A DNA stretch of 41,146 nt, from the IMG/VR virus record IMGVR_UViG_3300028177_000420, positions 1 to 41,146 of that record; one strand, written 5' to 3'. This stretch comes from a virus. Made by a program: the position numbers and the translations under genes. Below the pieces are notes generated by a model. The model worked only from the letters and a program-made list of their open reading frames with translations, had not been told where the DNA came from and ran no database searches. Within the stretch, counting starts at the first letter, position 1, and each line of letters begins with the position of its first letter. Shown one piece after another: positions 4,648 to 12,898 of this stretch.

Positions 4648-4821
4648 TTACTTAAGCTTACGAACTTCCTTGAACCAGACATGGCGTCTAAGTTTCTTAT
4701 CATATTTTTTAAATCGTAACTTTTCACCAGCCTTTAGTCCCCTAGTGGGTTTTGTGGTAGTGTAATACTCACCAGTACCTTCCTCGGATACTAACTTAAC
4801 TATTCTGTACGGTTTTGCCAT
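4648..4821 (-). CDS. rpmG: Ribosomal protein bL33
   Basis: A 57-residue protein that aligns along its length with bacterial L33, a component of the large subunit near the E site. The shared elements are KLVSEEGTGEYYTTTK (E. coli KLVSSAGTGHFYTTTK), a basic middle with KLRFKKYD, and the tail RHVWFKEVRK. It is the Cys-free type, which needs no zinc. ATG at 4821 lies inside the end of the glutaredoxin gene (26-base overlap). It is followed by the adk promoter. Probably made to replace or supplement host L33 in ribosomes during infection. Identification is by eye but strong. Confidence 0.9.
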   Translation of the reverse strand: MAKPYRIVKLVSEEGTGEYYTTTKPTRGLKAGEKLRFKKYDKKLRRHVWFKEVRKLK

Positions 4822-5110
4822 AGGTCACTTCCTTTAACCAATTTTCAAGTTTTTCATAACCACCAATATGAATTTCCATTTCTTCATTACCATAAGCTCT
4901 GTTAGGATCATACATGAAAACCTGGGGCACAGTTTTTGCATTATTTGATTTCTTAAAAAATGCTTTCTGTATCTCAGGACTTTCCATCACGTCCACATAG
5001 GTATAGTTCTTACCATAATGATCTAATAGTGTTTGGGCCATAGTACAATACCGACACGTTTCAGACCCATATACTATATACTCTTCCTTTCTCACACTAG
5101 ACCTTTCCAT
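4796..5110 (-). CDS. grx: Glutaredoxin
   Basis: A 104-residue thioredoxin-fold protein with the redox site CRYC (residues 19-22), the cis-proline motif TVPQVF and the C-terminal GGYEKLENWL, all typical of glutaredoxin. It would use glutathione to reduce disulfides, and ribonucleotide reductase is the classical client; the window encodes a class II RNR. It overlaps the upstream Cys-rich peptide by 19 bases and the downstream bL33 gene by 26 bases. Confidence 0.88.
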   Translation of the reverse strand: MERSSVRKEEYIVYGSETCRYCTMAQTLLDHYGKNYTYVDVMESPEIQKAFFKKSNNAKTVPQVFMYDPNRAYGNEEMEIHIGGYEKLENWLKEVTYGKTVQNS

Positions 5111-5220
5111 TCATTATTACTGAGTTTTCTATCTTCACAACCACACAGGTTATCCGGTGTACAGGTACACGGGTCACAAGTACAATTCTCACAATTACAA
5201 TCTATGTTATCGCAAGCCAT
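5092..5220 (-). CDS. Metallothionein-like Cys-rich peptide (42 aa)
   Basis: The peptide has nine cysteines in the first 28 residues in C-x-C and C-x-x-C spacing (CNCENCTCDPCTC, then CGC). That density is typical of bacterial metallothioneins and similar metal-buffering peptides. ATG at 5220 has AGGAGA upstream. The gene overlaps the glutaredoxin downstream. The neighbours are redox and Fe-S genes, which suggests handling of thiols or metals during infection. I cannot assign it to a named family with certainty. Confidence 0.75.
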   Translation of the reverse strand: MACDNIDCNCENCTCDPCTCTPDNLCGCEDRKLSNNEWKGLV

Positions 5221-5261
5221 TTTCTTTTCTCCTAAGTGATATTGTTTTCGGTAACTATACG

Positions 5262-5684
5262 TCATTCTCCTAGGTCTACTAACTCACGGTTCGCCAAGTG
5301 TTGTTCTTCGATTTCATCTTTTGACTGTCCATGATATGCTACCGCTTGATATTTCTCTATCATCAAATCATTTAGAATGACCCAGGCATCAGTCTCATCG
5401 TTGTAAACTTTGAACTCACCTAGAATTCTACCATACTTACCAACAGCATCTTTATGTGTTATCAGTGTTTGGGCACTACCTTTCGGCAAATAAGACTGTA
5501 CAAACTTCTTTGCAGCGAGACCGTATTTCTTTTCTACTAAGTCTCTAGTACGGGACTCTGGTGTATCCATACCATAAAAACGGACTCGCTGTTTCTTTAA
5601 CCAAACACCGAACCCCAAGTCAATATCCACATCGGCGGTATCACCATCAATTACTCTAATTATTTTACAGGCATATTCGTACAT
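5262..5684 (-). CDS. Thermonuclease-like endonuclease (SNase domain)
   Basis: The whole 140 aa is an SNase (TNase) domain: VIDGDTADVDIDLGFG, RFYGMDTPESR with the catalytic Arg-Asp-Glu set, GKYGRILGEF with the second Arg, and LNDLMIEKYQAVAYHG at the C-terminus. The fold cleaves DNA and RNA in a calcium-dependent way. There is no signal peptide, so it would act inside the cell, possibly in host-DNA breakdown. It follows the HtrA-type gene, whose stop lies nine bases upstream. An AATAAATA octamer lies five bases before the ATG. Confidence 0.88.
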   Translation of the reverse strand: MYEYACKIIRVIDGDTADVDIDLGFGVWLKKQRVRFYGMDTPESRTRDLVEKKYGLAAKKFVQSYLPKGSAQTLITHKDAVGKYGRILGEFKVYNDETDAWVILNDLMIEKYQAVAYHGQSKDEIEEQHLANRELVDLGE

Positions 5685-5692
5685 ACACTTAT

Positions 5693-6790
5693 TTATTCTT
5701 TTTTGTCTTCCTCTTCAGAATTTGGAGGAATAGTAGTAATATTATCCTTATCATAATACTCCATAGGAATTTCTAACTTGTCTAACTTGTAGGGTAATAT
5801 AAGAAACTCTCCTTTACGAATTATCATAAGATAAACTATTTCATATGGTTTTTTATTTACCATATATGTGGCTACATCTATCATATCATTTATAGGATAA
5901 CCATCCATAGCCACAACAACATCATAGTTTTTTAGACCTTGTTTTGAGCCATAATCATCTTCCTCAAGAAAATTCATTATTACACCAAACGTATTTGGAA
6001 CTTCCTTACCTTCTTCCTCTAAAATATACGATGCAACATCTACATTTAGATTTATAACATTTAATTTTAGCGCAGGCCTTGGCACCTCTATACCCTGTGT
6101 CATCCATAGTAAAGAATTCGCTATAGTATCAATCTGTACGGCATAACCCATACCGCTATAGATTTGTATTTTTTGTACCGTACCTTTGGTGGGAGCAATT
6201 ATGTAAGTGTTTATACCTATCACATTTCCTTCAGTATTAAACAACGGGCCGCCGCTACTACCTTCCTGTATTACTGCATCATGCTGTATAAGATACACAT
6301 AGGGTGTAAGGAAACTCTGTCTATTGATTGAATTGATAACGCCTTTGGTGACTGACCATTGTAAACTTAATGGGGCACCTACCGCATATACATCTATCCC
6401 TGAAATTATTTTATCAGTATCATATTCTAAATTGACATAACTAAATTCTTCCTCAGGCCAAGGATCTATATCAATCAATGCCAAATCAGCAACAGGATCT
6501 ATTCCTATTACTGTAGCTGTATGGTAACGTCGGCGTCTGTCTTTATGTAACCATACTCTAATTTTATCTGAATTATGCACCACATGATAGTTTGTTAGAA
6601 TATTACCATCTTCGGATATGATTACACCCGAACCATGGCCTGTTACCATATTGTCTTTCTCAACCCTGACTAAAACTGTAGAATTTAATGCTTTGGACAT
6701 CAAATCCACATGAGTCAATTCTTCAGCGTATGCCTTGAAGGTGCATAATGTTAAGAGAGACACCAAGAGAAACTTGGTGTATATTTTCAT
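5693..6790 (-). CDS. Secreted HtrA-type serine protease with PDZ domain
   Basis: A 365-residue protein starting MKIYTKFLLVSLLTLC. That is a signal peptide with a probable cut after TFKAYA (residue 22). A trypsin-like domain follows: His in NYHVVHN, Asp in VADLALIDID, Ser in QEGSSGGPLF. A PDZ-like domain lies near residues 250-350 (GSKQGLKNYDVVVAMDG). The start at 6790 is set by a TAGGAAA site and by the signal peptide; an ATG 32 codons upstream lies inside the preceding gene. It would act in the periplasm, degrading or folding proteins. Why a phage carries it is unclear; it follows the tape-measure gene and may act during assembly or lysis. Confidence 0.88.
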   Translation of the reverse strand: MKIYTKFLLVSLLTLCTFKAYAEELTHVDLMSKALNSTVLVRVEKDNMVTGHGSGVIISEDGNILTNYHVVHNSDKIRVWLHKDRRRRYHTATVIGIDPVADLALIDIDPWPEEEFSYVNLEYDTDKIISGIDVYAVGAPLSLQWSVTKGVINSINRQSFLTPYVYLIQHDAVIQEGSSGGPLFNTEGNVIGINTYIIAPTKGTVQKIQIYSGMGYAVQIDTIANSLLWMTQGIEVPRPALKLNVINLNVDVASYILEEEGKEVPNTFGVIMNFLEEDDYGSKQGLKNYDVVVAMDGYPINDMIDVATYMVNKKPYEIVYLMIIRKGEFLILPYKLDKLEIPMEYYDKDNITTIPPNSEEEDKKE

Positions 6791-6800
6791 ATTGTATTTC

Positions 6801-9800
6801 CTAATCAAATTTCGCCCAGCCAGATAGTGCATACCCTGACTGCTTATGTGTATTGGGATCAGATGCCATCTTGGGCGTTTGTACATTTATCGTGGTATTA
6901 CTATTGCTAGAATTTGTAACAGGAGCATTAACTATGTTATTACTACTACCACCCTCACCATACATATTAGCACTTGCTGTAGCGATATCGTTTCCTGGTG
7001 TCATTTGAGCTGATGGTTCAATAGCCGGGTCACGATATGATGCTCTAGCACCAGCAAGTTCTACTGCCCTACCTCTACCTGTAGAATTAACATCAATGTA
7101 TGTTGAGCCTGTAAGTTCTTGCAATCGGTCAATATCATCCGCAGTATATATACCCTGATCTCTTAATTTAGCCTCATCACCTTTCCAATCTTCCCAATCG
7201 ACTGTTTTGTAGCTATCTGCAATATTATTATAATCACCACGGGCGCCACCTGAGCCATCTTCGCTAGTTATTATCGACTGGCTAACATCACCGATAGAAT
7301 TCATAACTCGGGTCATCTGTGAAGTACCTTCCTCATACTCATCGCCTGAAAATTCAGTACTAAACTTGTTCACGGCTTCTATATTCGTACCAAACATATA
7401 ATCCATAGTCGCTATTTTAGCATCTCGTTTAGCTTCTGTTTTTCGTTTCTCTAGCGGGTTTTCTTCGTAGTACCCTGTATTTTCCTCTAGTAAATAAGCT
7501 GCACGGGCCCGGGCATCCTCGGCCGTAGCATTCTTATCTCTCATAAAGCGCTGCGCTTCTTTTTTGGTCATTTCTTCATTTGCAACTACTGCTCTGAGTT
7601 CTTCCTGTCTCTCTGCTCTATCTATCTCAACTTCATCCTCATATTCTAATCCCATTTTTGTCTGTCGCTGCAAGACACCTGCGCCACCGCCAGCATAAGC
7701 AACACCTTTATCTTGCATTGCTTTGAACATCTGGGCCCATTCTTCATCTGTAGCACTCGCTAAAAATTCTCTACGACCTTCAATGGTACTCATATCAACT
7801 TCTTTATCACCTACTGAAGCAGCCAATGCCGGTGGAGGAACAACCTTTTTACCTGAGGCTGTTTCTGTTGGTTTAGTTTTACCATCAGATTTTAAGCCCA
7901 TACCTTCTTTCATAATCTCACCTAAGGGAACATCATGGGTATAGAGCGAACCTTCCTCAAGCGCAGCATTAGTCATCTTTTGTTGATCTTCAGCAAGAAC
8001 TGCTTGTAGTTGTACTTGTTCTTGATTAAGTGCCGCAATTTCTATTTCTTCTTCGGTACTAATTTGGTTTAATGCCAATTGTTCTTGTTCATTAATTGCT
8101 GCAATTTCTGTTTCGGAATGGCCTTGAGCTTGTGAAAGTGCTATTGCAGCATTCCTAACATCTATATCCTTATCTTCTTGGGTATACTCACCAATACCAA
8201 ACAAACCACCCTCACTAATTTCTTTTTCTGTAGCTGATTTTAATTTTTTCTCTAACTGAGTAACATTATTTTGAACTATTTGACGGCTATCTTCAGCTGC
8301 CTCACCGACCTGGCCACGTTTTCTTTCAGCCCGTGATTTTGCATCTGTTTTTTCTTCTTCTACTTCTGCAATTTTTTCTGTAGTTACAGCAATCGCCTCT
8401 GCGGTCTTATCTTTGTCGCTACCAAGTCCAAGCCAACCCATTAATTTCTTACCACCAGGAACTTTAGAAATCATAGATACTAACAAACCACCCCAATCTA
8501 TATCAAAGATATTAGCAAACCATTCACCTATAGCCGCAAGAGCATTTTTTAAGGTTTCCCATAAACTAAACCCTTCACTGGCTGCTTCTCCATCTTCTTC
8601 GCCCCAAGAGAATAATTCAGTAAACCACTTTTTTACGCTTTTCCATATGTCTGAAATGTATGTTGTTAAATTAGTCCAACCTTCAGCAATACCATCTGAA
8701 GCCCATGCCCAGAGTCCTTTGAACCAAGCAATAGCAGAATCCCATACACCTTTAATAAACGTGGTTACATTAGTCCAACCTTCCGCTATACCATCTGAAG
8801 CCCAAGACCATATTTTTTTAAACCAAGCAATAGCAGAATCCCAAATACCTTTAATAAATGTTGTCACATTAGTCCAACCTTCTGCTATACCATCACTAGC
8901 CCATGCCCAGAGTCCTTTGAACCAAGCAATAGCAGAATCCCATACACCTTTAACAAATGTAGTCACATTAGTCCAACCTTTAGCAATACCATCACTAGCC
9001 CATTCCCAAAGGCCTTTGAACCAGCCTATTACTTTATCCCACACGCCTTGGATAAATTCTGTCAAACCTGTCCATACACCAGATATTGCTTCACTAGCCC
9101 ACGTCCAGAGTCCTTTAAACCAATCTACTACTTTCAGGAAGGCCTCTTTAATCGGTTTCCAAAATTTGACTGTCAGCCAAAGAACTAATCCGGCAATGGC
9201 AGCAACAACCAGAATCTTCCATTTTGCAAACATCATCACTACTTTAAAAATAGTTTTAAAGAAGTTAAAGAATTTTAAAATCATTTTACCAAACTTACCC
9301 ATCCCACCTAACTTCTCAGCAATACCACCTTCAACTGCATCTTCACCTTCCTTTGATGCATCTGGTCCTTCTGCAACGTCCGCCATTATCTCCAGGAGTG
9401 ATGTTTGTTTTTTCAGTTCATCTAATATTTCGGCAGAACTACCAGCGATACTGTCCATAGCAATAGCAGGATCTGCAATACCAGCACCTTCGGCTGCAGC
9501 TTCACTACCATCGGCCTCAACACCTTCTTCTTCCTCACCACCACCAAACATAGACATTGCTGCACCTTTAAGAGAAGCCCCAATACCTTTAATCTTTCCG
9601 CCGATAGTTGTAGGTTTTTCTTGCGGCTTGACATCTTCTACTGGCTTACCTGTTTCTGGATCAGTTCCAAATGCTGCGCCTTTTCCCATAACATGAGCTT
9701 TAGCCAGGGCACCAATAGATAATTTCTTTTTAGGTATGGCCTCAGTGGTTGGTTTAACTCCAGGTGGCGCATCTTTATCTTTTTTATCACCAAACAGAGC

Positions 9801-10346
9801 ATTAAAGCCACCCTTGGCCAACTTACCAATTCCCTTAATACTACCAACTAATCCTTTCCTAATCTTATCAAAGCCCCAAGCTGCAAGTATCTGCACAGGT
9901 TTGGGGAACATATTTTTAAGAGAACCTATTAGACTATAGGTGCCAAATATACTGTCATAAAATTCTGAACCAAAATCTCGTTGTCGGTCTTTTAACTTCT
10001 GTTGTAATTTTGCTTCTTCCTTCTGAAACTCTCTATCAGCCTTTCTTAATTTTGCGGCATCGGCAGTGCTGGCTTTTTCAATTTCTTTACGGAGATTAGC
10101 TAATTGTTTTTCCTGACTGAGTTTCTTTTCTTTAAGTTCTAATGCATCATCTTCTTTTTCGGACTCTTTATTTAGAAGTTCATTTTGTTTCTTGATACGA
10201 TTTTGTAATTCTTTGAGTCTCTTATTGGCGTCCTTACCTTCTTTGGACATATTCCAGGCTCGATCAGCCTCAAGCTTAATAAGCTTTGCTGTAACATCCG
10301 CAAGACGTTTTTTATTGTCTATTTCAGCTTTTGTGTCTGTGGGCAT
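6801..10346 (-). CDS. Putative tail tape-measure protein with 99-bp tandem repeats
   Basis: This is the longest gene in the window (1181 aa). Residues 1-130 are coiled coil, about 350-395 is a hydrophobic stretch that could span a membrane, and about 392-590 consists of six 33-residue Trp-rich amphipathic repeats (core WFKGLWAWASDGIAEGW). The rest is Glu/Ala-rich coiled coil and low-complexity sequence. Length, coiled coil and hydrophobic segment fit a tape-measure protein. So does its place after the tail tube and gp26-like genes, as in the lambda V-G/GT-H order. No lysozyme or peptidase motif was seen. A different large virion protein is the alternative. Confidence 0.7.
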   Translation of the reverse strand: MPTDTKAEIDNKKRLADVTAKLIKLEADRAWNMSKEGKDANKRLKELQNRIKKQNELLNKESEKEDDALELKEKKLSQEKQLANLRKEIEKASTADAAKLRKADREFQKEEAKLQQKLKDRQRDFGSEFYDSIFGTYSLIGSLKNMFPKPVQILAAWGFDKIRKGLVGSIKGIGKLAKGGFNALFGDKKDKDAPPGVKPTTEAIPKKKLSIGALAKAHVMGKGAAFGTDPETGKPVEDVKPQEKPTTIGGKIKGIGASLKGAAMSMFGGGEEEEGVEADGSEAAAEGAGIADPAIAMDSIAGSSAEILDELKKQTSLLEIMADVAEGPDASKEGEDAVEGGIAEKLGGMGKFGKMILKFFNFFKTIFKVVMMFAKWKILVVAAIAGLVLWLTVKFWKPIKEAFLKVVDWFKGLWTWASEAISGVWTGLTEFIQGVWDKVIGWFKGLWEWASDGIAKGWTNVTTFVKGVWDSAIAWFKGLWAWASDGIAEGWTNVTTFIKGIWDSAIAWFKKIWSWASDGIAEGWTNVTTFIKGVWDSAIAWFKGLWAWASDGIAEGWTNLTTYISDIWKSVKKWFTELFSWGEEDGEAASEGFSLWETLKNALAAIGEWFANIFDIDWGGLLVSMISKVPGGKKLMGWLGLGSDKDKTAEAIAVTTEKIAEVEEEKTDAKSRAERKRGQVGEAAEDSRQIVQNNVTQLEKKLKSATEKEISEGGLFGIGEYTQEDKDIDVRNAAIALSQAQGHSETEIAAINEQEQLALNQISTEEEIEIAALNQEQVQLQAVLAEDQQKMTNAALEEGSLYTHDVPLGEIMKEGMGLKSDGKTKPTETASGKKVVPPPALAASVGDKEVDMSTIEGRREFLASATDEEWAQMFKAMQDKGVAYAGGGAGVLQRQTKMGLEYEDEVEIDRAERQEELRAVVANEEMTKKEAQRFMRDKNATAEDARARAAYLLEENTGYYEENPLEKRKTEAKRDAKIATMDYMFGTNIEAVNKFSTEFSGDEYEEGTSQMTRVMNSIGDVSQSIITSEDGSGGARGDYNNIADSYKTVDWEDWKGDEAKLRDQGIYTADDIDRLQELTGSTYIDVNSTGRGRAVELAGARASYRDPAIEPSAQMTPGNDIATASANMYGEGGSSNNIVNAPVTNSSNSNTTINVQTPKMASDPNTHKQSGYALSGWAKFD
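8577..9170 (-). repeat. Six 99-bp tandem repeats inside the tape-measure-like gene
   Basis: The same 99-bp register recurs at 8577, 8676, 8775, 8874, 8973 and 9072. The four central units are nearly identical in DNA and in protein (33 aa, with conserved GWTNVTTF and AIAWFK elements). The outer two are diverged. The unit is exactly in frame, so changes in copy number lengthen or shorten the protein by 33 residues. Confidence 0.92.
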
Positions 10347-10670
10347 TTACTTTTTACCTTTAGGTATTGGTGAACCAGCCTTACCAACATATAGTCCAAA
10401 GAACGCAGCACCAGCTCCAACTATGGTAGATATGAATGCTGCTTGGGCATTGGTAGGATCGTCTAGAGCCATGAACCATGTAGTAGATGAATAAAATGCA
10501 TAGATATAAGCCACCATGATGAGTCTGGGGATTAACCTAAACTGATCCATAATACCAGAAGTTTTATTATACCATGTAGGTTCATCTTGTCCCCGTGCTG
10601 GTACAATATCTTCTACTGCGAGCTCATACTCTTTAGTAGTTTCTACAATTCTTACCTTTTCTTCAGCCAC
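10347..10670 (-). CDS. Two-helix membrane protein, possible holin (107 aa)
   Basis: Residues 1-45 are soluble and acidic. Two hydrophobic helices follow, at about 46-70 (RLIPRLIMVAYIYAFYSSTTW) and 78-100 (FISTIVGAGAAFFGLYVG). A short basic tail (PIPKGKK) ends the protein. Small size, two helices and a charged tail fit a class II holin, but other phage membrane proteins look similar. It lies between the gp26-like gene and the tape-measure gene. The lysis hydrolase is elsewhere (27754-28221), which weakens the holin idea. Confidence 0.5.
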   Translation of the reverse strand: MAEEKVRIVETTKEYELAVEDIVPARGQDEPTWYNKTSGIMDQFRLIPRLIMVAYIYAFYSSTTWFMALDDPTNAQAAFISTIVGAGAAFFGLYVGKAGSPIPKGKK

Positions 10671-10672
10671 TA

Positions 10673-10861
10673 TTATCTCCTAGCCTCTGCCTTTCTTCGC
10701 TCTTTCTCCTCTTTCAAATATTGAACTAGAAGTGCAGCATATATTGTTCTTTCCCAAGGCAACATATTCATCAAGTCCTCATAACCGTAATTGTGATGTT
10801 GCATTAAACCAAAGTTCAATTTTATATGATGCTCTAAACTATCGTGAGAAAGAGCTATGCG
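10673..10861 (-). CDS. -1 frame extension of the gp26-like gene (tail-assembly-chaperone-like)
   Basis: This frame continues the gp26-like protein after a -1 shift at 10867-10861 and runs 62 residues to TAA at 10675-10673. The in-frame ATG at 10804 would give only 43 residues. The sequence before that Met (SLEHHIKLNFGL) reads like continuous protein with what follows (MQHHNYGYEDLMNMLPWERTIYAALL), which favours the fusion. The Pro-Trp-Glu-Arg core and the charged helical end look like the extension of tail assembly chaperones (lambda G/GT logic). A stop follows two bases before the holin-like ATG. Confidence 0.65.
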   Translation of the reverse strand, partial: RIALSHDSLEHHIKLNFGLMQHHNYGYEDLMNMLPWERTIYAALLVQYLKEEKERRKAEARR

Positions 10862-11556
10862 AAAAAACTATTAAGGCCCTCCAATGTTTTCCTGTGTTTC
10901 TTTTTAGTCTTAGGATTAGTAAACTCTACATCGTAACTCAATTTAGGCATTGTCTCAAAGAACTTTTGCATATCAGCAAATTGTTTAGTGTTCAGACTAT
11001 CCAAAAACACTATTAACTCCTTCTTATTAAAATCAGCACGTTCATGGATAATTTCCCCATCTATAATACGTTCTACACATTTACCAATTAAATCAAATAT
11101 AGCCTTAGTATCTTCACTATCAAAAGATTCAAGCATTTCAAATGTCGGATAAGCCATTTCTATTGTGATTTCATCATTTAGTTTTATTAAATTAGTATGA
11201 CCTTTCTGAAATTTAACTGAAATTTCATCTAAAGGTATATCAACCTCCACATATGTTTTCAGATCATCAGGGCTAAGTACTTGCACCTTTGCAACCTCAC
11301 CCACTGACTTAGCTCGTATGTTAAGAAACACATACTCCAAATCAAACATAGGCATCTCATTAACTTTAAGAGTCTTGAACGTACAGTTATCTACTATCGT
11401 GCGGACAGCATTCACCATATGTTTCGTATCCTCTTCCTCCATTGCTATCAATAGAATCTTTTCCTCTTTGACCAAAAATGGTCTGTACTTCAACTGTTCC
11501 TTTGTAGAAGGAACCTCCAACTCATAGGTTGGTGTGTTAATTACTGGTAAACTCAT
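10855..11556 (-). CDS. Baseplate protein, T4 gp26-like (PF12322-type)
   Basis: A 233-residue protein that starts MSLPVINTPTYELEVPST and continues KYRPFLVKEEKILLIAMEEED, the pattern I associate with the T4 gp26 baseplate/hub assembly family. An AGGAG site lies upstream of the ATG. Near the stop the frame carries T TTT TTC (10867-10861), with a downstream -1 frame open for 62 codons. If shifting happens the product is a two-form protein. Role in T4: baseplate hub assembly. Here it lies between the tail-tube and tape-measure genes, so a tail assembly chaperone role is possible. Confidence 0.8.
   Translation of the reverse strand: MSLPVINTPTYELEVPSTKEQLKYRPFLVKEEKILLIAMEEEDTKHMVNAVRTIVDNCTFKTLKVNEMPMFDLEYVFLNIRAKSVGEVAKVQVLSPDDLKTYVEVDIPLDEISVKFQKGHTNLIKLNDEITIEMAYPTFEMLESFDSEDTKAIFDLIGKCVERIIDGEIIHERADFNKKELIVFLDSLNTKQFADMQKFFETMPKLSYDVEFTNPKTKKKHRKTLEGLNSFFA
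10861..10867 (-). promoter_or_regulatory. Slippery heptamer T TTT TTC for -1 frameshifting
   Basis: In the gp26-like reading frame the last codons are AGT TTT TTC GCA TAG, so T TTT TTC fits the X XXY YYZ rule. Slipping back one base leads into the long open frame 10861-10673 and avoids the stop two codons ahead. Confidence 0.6.
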
Positions 11557-11589: not shown

Positions 11590-12321
11590 TCATTGTTTAT
11601 TTTGCCGGGCCATGTAGCGTGCGGCCCAGGCGGCCGACTGCTCAGCTTCAACAGCTGCAGCAACCGAGTCGTCTCCTCCTGACTCGGCCTCGCCTAACAC
11701 ATCAGGATTTGGAGGTGCTGGGGGATTTCGGCCGACATATGCTGGTGGTAGATATGGAACATGGCGTTTTATTTTTGGTGCTGCCTTTTCTATACTATAA
11801 TTAGGTTCTTCTGTCCAATATCTAAATGCAAATTCCACATCTAATGTTTGATATGTATCATTACTGGCAGCCCCGAATGCTTGGCCACTTACTGTTTTGG
11901 GAAACACCTCAAATAGTTTTACTGCATATCTATCTCTTTCATCTGAATCTAAAGCAAAAATAGACATCGTGCACTGTGCCGCATAGTCAGCATAATAAAA
12001 TGCTTCCCAATCCATTTTATTAATAGTCAAGGCCTGCCATAGCGTGAAATATTTACGTTCTGGCATTCCAGGAGTACATATGAAAGTTATGTTGGTAGGT
12101 CCGTAGCTCATGGCTGTGGCCAGTTCTCTAGTAGGACCATAACGCAAATCTTCAGGATTACTAATAATTGTCTGACCTGGAATTTCTACCGATTCGGCAA
12201 ATGCAAGCATCTCCTGATCCATTGCACCCAGACCGCGAGGGCCCATAATAGAAATCCTATACTTATTTTGTCGCTGAACATTTTGACCAGCGACTTTTGC
12301 TGCAAATGCATTAAGTCCCAT
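11590..12321 (-). CDS. Tail tube-like protein, T4 gp19 family
   Basis: A 243-residue protein with gp19-like features: an N-terminal basic segment (QNKYRISIMGPRGLG), FAESVEIPGQTIISNP and the C-terminal YQTLDVEFAFRYW. These fit the tube-forming beta-sandwich fold shared by T4 gp19, gp48 and gp54. The last 60 residues are Pro- and Ala-rich (PPAYVGRNPPAPPNP) and look flexible. The ATG at 12321 overlaps the upstream stop; the longer reading from 12426 lies inside the upstream gene. It could be the main tube subunit or a baseplate tube protein. Confidence 0.75.
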   Translation of the reverse strand: MGLNAFAAKVAGQNVQRQNKYRISIMGPRGLGAMDQEMLAFAESVEIPGQTIISNPEDLRYGPTRELATAMSYGPTNITFICTPGMPERKYFTLWQALTINKMDWEAFYYADYAAQCTMSIFALDSDERDRYAVKLFEVFPKTVSGQAFGAASNDTYQTLDVEFAFRYWTEEPNYSIEKAAPKIKRHVPYLPPAYVGRNPPAPPNPDVLGEAESGGDDSVAAAVEAEQSAAWAARYMARQNKQ

Positions 12322-12898
12322 AGTTAATCTTTTCCCTAGAAGCTTTATACACACTATTATTGTGTACTTTCTTACGACTATTAAATTCACCACTAAAAAA
12401 TCGTTGCACTGGTAGTAATGCACCAATCAACATATCATCTAGTGGTATTTGTAAAAACAAAGATTTTACTTGTTTTGCATTATACTGCCTAATCGTTGGT
12501 GCCACATAACGTAACGCCTTTACCTTATCCCATGTTACCACAGCAGTCTGTGCAGTCTCATCACCATACCCAGCTGCAATAAGCTCTAGAAGTTTTATCC
12601 TCATAGGGATAGGTAGATAGTGAAAGTTCAAACCTTTAAACCCTGTTTTAGATCCTCCAACAGGTAGAACTAAAGGAAATGTATCATAAAATGAAATTCT
12701 TGTTGGCTCTTTTGGTCTATAATTAAAAAGATTCAACATCCCACCTCTAGGTCTGGCCTGTGCGGTGGCATCAGCCTTACCTTCCCTAATTACACTATCA
12801 CCTTTTAATGCGCCCAACGCTCTTACCCTATCCCTGTACCATCTGACAGATAGTTCTCTACCTTCCGCGGATTCTTTAATGTCTGCAAATAATGTCAT
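12311..12898 (-). CDS. Conserved phage structural/assembly protein (195 aa), function uncertain
   Basis: The core shows SFYDTFPLVLPVGG, then GFKGLNFHYLPIPMRIKLLELI, a combination I recall from T4-like marine phages but cannot tie to a named T4 gene. Sometimes proteins of this neighbourhood are called gp2 (DNA end protector); I see no proof. It follows the gp4 gene and overlaps the tail-tube gene by 11 bases. A late-type octamer GATAAATA lies seven bases before its ATG. Confidence 0.55.
   Translation of the reverse strand: MTLFADIKESAEGRELSVRWYRDRVRALGALKGDSVIREGKADATAQARPRGGMLNLFNYRPKEPTRISFYDTFPLVLPVGGSKTGFKGLNFHYLPIPMRIKLLELIAAGYGDETAQTAVVTWDKVKALRYVAPTIRQYNAKQVKSLFLQIPLDDMLIGALLPVQRFFSGEFNSRKKVHNNSVYKASREKINYGT

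Follow-up and report, generated by a model that had tools for sequence, protein, structure and literature searches.

The viral sequence analysed here, the 41,146 nt of IMG/VR virus record IMGVR_UViG_3300028177_000420 (the window), belongs to a marine T4-family phage and carries a gene related to gene 26 of phage T4, and we believe that this gene encodes a pair of tail assembly chaperones made by -1 ribosomal frameshifting, of the kind known from lambda G and GT. We put the probability of this explanation at about 0.9. The argument for a G/GT-type pair is built from a slippery heptamer, the conservation of the frame behind it, the lack of a start codon proper to that frame, homology to T4 gp51, and a predicted chaperone fold. 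An earlier note on this DNA had proposed a gp26-like gene with an in-frame T TTT TTC two codons before its stop and a 62-codon extension in the -1 frame, and reading the minus strand confirms this. The site, its conservation, the homology between the fusion and gp51, and the fold prediction can all be taken from sequence.

The gp26-like open reading frame (ORF) matches PF12322 with E=3.5e-62 and 210 bits against a curated cut-off of 24.5, and phrog_150 with 1.6e-67. Its last codons are GAG GGC CTT AAT AGT TTT TTC GCA TAG, with the stop at 10857..10855, and the heptamer is phased for simultaneous -1 slippage. After the slip the -1 frame would read TTT TTT CGC ATA and so on to TAA at 10675..10673. 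In the mechanism we propose, most ribosomes would halt at TAG 10857 and release a short chaperone of 233 aa. A minority standing on AGT TTT TTC would slip back by one base, with both Phe tRNAs re-pairing on TTT TTT, and would then read 62 codons in the -1 frame to give a predicted gp26-gp51 fusion of 294 aa. The upstream GGAGGG would pair with 16S ribosomal RNA while the ribosome is on the heptamer, probably promoting the slip, a role that in related phages is probably shared by a hairpin lying 5 nt beyond the heptamer. By analogy with the binding roles of lambda gpG and gpGT (PMC5009743), the shared gp26 part may coat the tape measure protein and the gp51 part may recruit tail tube subunits. 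We infer the slippage, its rate and these binding roles.

A first scan of viral contigs gave 80 relatives, and further scans together with named phages brought the total to 133 loci, from which 89 representatives, mutually <90% identical, were kept. Conservation of the heptamer in related phages had been suggested as a check, and it holds: the site is TTTTTTC in 77 representatives, TTTTTTT in 4 and TTTTTTG in 1, or 82 of 89 in all. At other codon positions in the same genes an in-frame T TTT TTC occurs 0 times in 18,107. The Phe-Phe pair is written TTT-TTC at the 77 sites and at 0 of the 76 other Phe-Phe pairs in these genes, which use TTC-TTT, TTT-TTT or TTC-TTC. The codon 5' of the site ends in T in 82 of 82 cases, though it codes for Ser, Asp, Ala, Asn or Thr. 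Behind the site the -1 frame is open in all 77 complete representatives, and both remaining frames meet a stop within 53 codons in all 77. Judged by these conservation and codon statistics, the candidate heptamer and its open -1 frame are far beyond chance.

A Shine-Dalgarno (SD)-like element lies about 10 nt 5' of the heptamer, as in the dnaX type of site. Mean anti-SD pairing of this stretch is -6.89, against -4.66 +/- 0.16 for recoded versions in which the amino acids are unchanged and codons are drawn from each gene's own usage; 0 of 500 recodings were as strong. A test slid to 60 codons upstream gives z of about -13 to -15 at the element only and between -2.6 and +3.6 elsewhere. The Glu codon within the stretch is GAG in 48 cases and GAA in 8, whereas elsewhere it is GAG 575 times and GAA 1317 times, and this therefore points to selection at the RNA level. 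By these comparisons the SD-like element is under selection beyond that on the protein sequence, and it probably stimulates slippage. In the window GGAGGG pairs with the anti-SD at -9.8 kcal/mol.

It could be argued instead that T TTT TTC is a mere by-product of two protein constraints (Phe-Phe and Phe-Phe-Arg), with the two frames joined in some other way. Arg is the next -1 frame codon after the site in 66 of 78 representatives, and this alone would demand TTC followed by G. However, constraint on both frames at the junction presupposes that translation of the -1 frame begins at that point, the heptamer persists also where the next codon is Leu or Gln, and the synonymous choice of GAG just upstream speaks for selection at the RNA level. 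We give the by-product explanation very little credence.

The extension itself matches phrog_634 (gp51) at 3.6e-22, over the C-terminal half of the profile, and is therefore not an anonymous ORF. A separate small gp51 could still be made from it, with translation either beginning at a start codon within the extension or re-initiating once the gp26 stop has been read, and named phages do annotate a separate gp51 from an early ATG, in some of them overlapping the gp26 stop (TAATG or TGATG). A separate gp51 would not require the heptamer, yet the heptamer is kept. No column of the alignment holds a conserved start codon: where the window has ATG 10804, ATG stands in 43 of 78 representatives, and other starts are scattered. 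In the window this first ATG comes only after 19 codons with no SD before it, and the SD signal ahead of the heptamer is too distant from any ATG in the extension to serve it. Among the representatives, anti-SD pairing before the extension's first ATG averages -1.6 kcal/mol, compared with -1.6 at random positions and -4.1 at gp26 starts.

Start codon positions vary among phages, and the amino acids preceding them show conservation at the protein level (R-[IVL]-A/G-[LM]-x-H-...). The earlier note had described a protein-like extension running continuously upstream of ATG 10804 and had asked whether the codons before it are conserved; they are, as protein, but it was mistaken in calling this the only ATG, since two more lie inside the extension past it (...DLMNM...). 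It had also named what would count against its proposal, a heptamer lost in relatives that keep the ATG and its ribosome site. We find the reverse, a heptamer that is kept, an ATG in just over half, and no ribosome site. As in the lambda G/GT type, the overlapping downstream frame is kept as protein without a start of its own, and T4 gp51 corresponds to the full-length fusion. With no conserved start or SD, and with conserved residues before the ATG, we regard re-initiation as a minor and improbable rival that might apply to some phages but not to the one in the window.

Downstream of the site, RNA from +12 to +72 folds better than dinucleotide shuffles (z -2.0), whereas the 60 nt preceding the site (z +0.1) and the stretch from +60 to +120 (z 0.0) do not. 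Against versions in which the -1 frame was recoded synonymously, the stretch from +7 to +62 again folds better (z -2.0). This takes the form, in 26 of 77 representatives, of a hairpin with an 11-bp stem and a loop of 9 nt, which begins 5 nt 3' of the heptamer. Standard pairs fill 91% of its cells against 24-48% when the helix is slid, a share that is biased upward because the 26 sequences were chosen for the helix. The compensatory changes, in which one pair alternates between G-C, U-A and A-U, are less affected by this choice. RNAalifold found no consensus structure across all 78 representatives; the hairpin is lineage-specific, and we therefore claim it for the group of 26 only. The earlier note's suggestion of a downstream stem-loop holds for that sister lineage, but not as a strong structure in the window. 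We asked whether a strong SD goes with a weak hairpin and vice versa, and saw no such trade-off (Spearman 0.22, P 0.06).

The long form could in principle come from slippage of RNA polymerase rather than of ribosomes, and a run of six T is the type of sequence where polymerases can slip. However, the bacterial sites described for this are runs of nine A or T (PMC5009743), the heptamer holds a strict frame with TTC in place of a longer T run, and the SD-like element and hairpin are stimulators of ribosomes. We think polymerase slippage highly unlikely.

T4 gp26 matches the short form with E 6e-21. T4 gp51 (249 aa) matches the profile of the fused protein at 2.4e-9, compared with 0.018 when only the short form is used and 0.0019 when only the extension is. 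With hhalign, fused columns 25-283 align with T4 gp51 residues 13-244 over 226 columns at 97% probability, and phrog_150 spans residues 3 to 248 of the T4-type gp51. T4 gp51 is homologous to the whole fusion, and T4 therefore has a separate gene for each form, gene 26 for the short one and gene 51 for the long one, where the phage in the window would make both from one gene with a shift. A tree places T4-type gp26 and gp51 together and apart from the frameshift-type genes (support 93/91, with long branches and a midpoint root). This fits a duplication in the T4 lineage, although the tree does not prove its direction.

Structure prediction points the same way. The AlphaFold2 model of the window's gp26 has a predicted local distance difference test (pLDDT) score of 89, and the T4-type gp51, folded as the natural counterpart of the fusion, has 84.5. 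The two models have their helices and strands in the same order, and gp51 has extra C-terminal helices at the place of the extension. In a second-look alignment residues 1-87 of the gp26 model match the HK97 tail assembly chaperone 2ob9 with Z 8.0, 3fgx with 7.8 and YqbN 3klu with 6.7, the next match being 2.8; these Z values are borderline and come from a predicted model. We take 3fgx and YqbN to be phage or prophage chaperone relatives, which their titles do not state. The gp26 model suggests that its N-terminal domain has a tail assembly chaperone fold. The gp26 profile gave no hit when solved structures were searched by sequence. The earlier note's comparison with lambda G/GT gains support both from this predicted fold and from the finding that T4 gp51 is a homologue of the entire fusion.

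Several observations weigh against our interpretation and should be stated together. The fold match is limited to residues 1-87, Foldseek alone lists the HK97 protein without a significant E-value, and a second look through the PDB with the T4-type gp51 model gave no chaperone match. A separate small ORF sits between the extension and the tape measure gene. The window's own hairpin has 5 bp and is weak (z -0.7 to 0.0), with no strong structure downstream, and therefore the upstream element is the better supported stimulator in this phage. One of the 133 loci, L037, has a single-base change in the heptamer, AGTGTTTTC instead of AGTTTTTTC, which may reflect either a sequencing error or a site that is weakened in nature. 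Finally, the Ackermannviridae and Vibrio phages D504 and K476 have a -1 extension in the same place with a non-canonical junction, GAN ATT TTC ATT TAA (Ackermannviridae) or CTT TTC/T, at which re-pairing would be open to a single Phe tRNA. The Ackermannviridae were kept apart and not counted as support for T TTT TTC. Another locus, L118, has a broken frame that is probably a sequence error.

Two further observations on the Ackermannviridae deserve record in their own right. Across these loci (L095, L102-L116) the junction GAN ATT TTC ATT TAA, TTTTTGAAA, is near-invariant as DNA at ~70% protein identity. Their -1 extension is phrog_9633, which is related to gp51, and the site would be a non-canonical -1 site using a single tRNA.

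A homologous extension behind a T TTT TTY/G site is found in the Kyanoviridae, Stenotrophomonas phage Mendera, Aeromonas phages (Straboviridae), Rhizobium phage RHph_Y68 (TTTTTTG) and a 253-kb Vibrio phage. On this distribution, much of the T4 family has kept the putative frameshift signal. A separate gp51 is annotated in P-SSM4, S-CRM01, Mendera, RHph_Y68 and others, the extension is omitted in several, and a joined gp26-gp51 gene appears in 0 of 15 named phage records with this layout. The parts are never joined in these records, so the databases, PHROG families 634 and 9633 among them, hold a truncated protein. Cyanophage gp51 has been described as ~20% of its usual length, without the first ~200 residues (Sullivan 2010, PMC3037559); the frameshift that we propose explains the short gp51 of marine T4-like phages, since the missing part is supplied in frame 0 by gene 26.

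The features of the locus are collected in Table 1. The tail tube gene lies upstream of the chaperone gene and the tape measure gene downstream. This is the order that had been expected from lambda, but the direct adjacency that had been assumed does not hold, as the 107-codon ORF at 10670..10347 stands between.

Table 1. Features of the chaperone locus and its neighbours in the window
Feature	Coordinates	Strand	Remarks
gp26-like gene, putative short tail assembly chaperone (G / TAC-N equivalent)	11556..10855	minus	233 aa; PF12322, phrog_150
Candidate slippery heptamer T TTT TTC, zero frame	10867..10861	minus	sequence read
-1 frame extension (gp51 / T equivalent), predicted C-terminal part of long form	10861..10673	minus	62 codons + TAA; phrog_634
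SD-like element GGAGGG, 9 nt 5' of heptamer	10882..10877	minus	anti-SD pairing; probable slippage stimulator
Weak 5-bp hairpin GCTCT...AGAGC, where relatives have the putative stimulatory hairpin	10855..10831	minus	folding, no stronger than expected
107-aa ORF between extension and tape measure gene	10670..10347	minus	GTG start, SD AGGAG; phrog_10198; outside the frameshift itself
Tape measure protein gene, expected chaperone partner	6801..10346	minus	1181 aa; phrog_58 7.3e-23
Tail tube protein gene (gp19-like), expected partner of long form	11590..12426	minus	phrog_45 4.3e-25; PF06841 weak

The surroundings hold some other features, all on the minus strand. The 107-aa ORF has a hydrophobic stretch and no counterpart at this place in P-SSM4. 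The tape measure gene contains, at 8681-9080, four to five tandem Trp-rich units of ~33 aa (...WFKGLWAWASDGIAEGWTNVTTFIKGVWDSA...). Overlapping its end, 5693-6886 encodes a trypsin/HtrA-type serine-protease-like protein with the motif GSSGGP and a likely signal peptide, which is unusual cargo beside a tail gene. A small ORF at 5092-5265 is very rich in Cys (MACDNIDCNCENCTCDPCTCTPDNLCGCE...) and has a metallothionein-like appearance; its neighbours are a glutaredoxin-like ORF (4796-5110) and a thermonuclease-like ORF (5262-5684).

Tail assembly chaperones made by -1 frameshifting are a feature of most long-tailed phages, and the pair proposed here would be of the same kind as lambda G/GT. Both lie near the tail tube and tape measure genes, each has a -1 slippage site, here a candidate one, shortly before the short gene ends, and both would give a short form and a minor long form, here predicted from sequence. 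The differences are that sequence similarity was neither detected nor expected, that the lambda heptamer is other than T TTT TTC, and that the phage in the window has a contractile tail and one small ORF between chaperone and tape measure. In E. coli dnaX the -1 heptamer is preceded, at a distance of about 10 nt, by an internal SD, which acts together with a downstream hairpin. The window shares the internal SD upstream of a -1 heptamer, but the gene and heptamer are different, and the shifted product of dnaX is the shorter one, unlike that of the window. In other phage families, the locus of Pseudomonas phage Adele and of the Vandenendeviridae/Andersonviridae has a conserved poly-T (GTTTTT) -1 site, and its extension, which precedes the tape measure gene, has been misannotated as a gene in its own right (PMC12846349).

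The earlier note took a frameshifting chaperone in the T4 family to be something new. It is not: the idea was already in the literature by 2022, when Vladimirov, Gautam and Davidson identified T4-like phage chaperone genes (Virology 566:9-15), which by all signs, as citing papers present that work, belong to the same protein family as the window's. We have not found the SD-like stimulator or the covarying 11-bp hairpin of one lineage described, as far as that work is known through the papers that cite it. The window has the SD-like element clearly and the hairpin weakly.

T4 differs in having two separate divergent genes without a frameshift site. Its gp26 and gp51 are both listed as hub assembly chaperones and gp51 is reported absent from the particle (PMC3004832); gp51 has also been named "baseplate hub assembly catalyst". 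At slightly better than even odds, we lean toward a combined view in which frameshifting was ancestral in the T4 superfamily, with a dnaX-like two-part stimulator (the SD element 9 nt upstream, joined in some lineages by a covarying hairpin). Coliphage T4, which has long been cited as an exception without G/GT frameshifting, would have replaced it by gene duplication, and gene 51 would be the permanently fused long form. The site described here offers a clear case for asking whether an internal SD drives -1 slippage, and the phages that carry it belong to a group abundant in the ocean.
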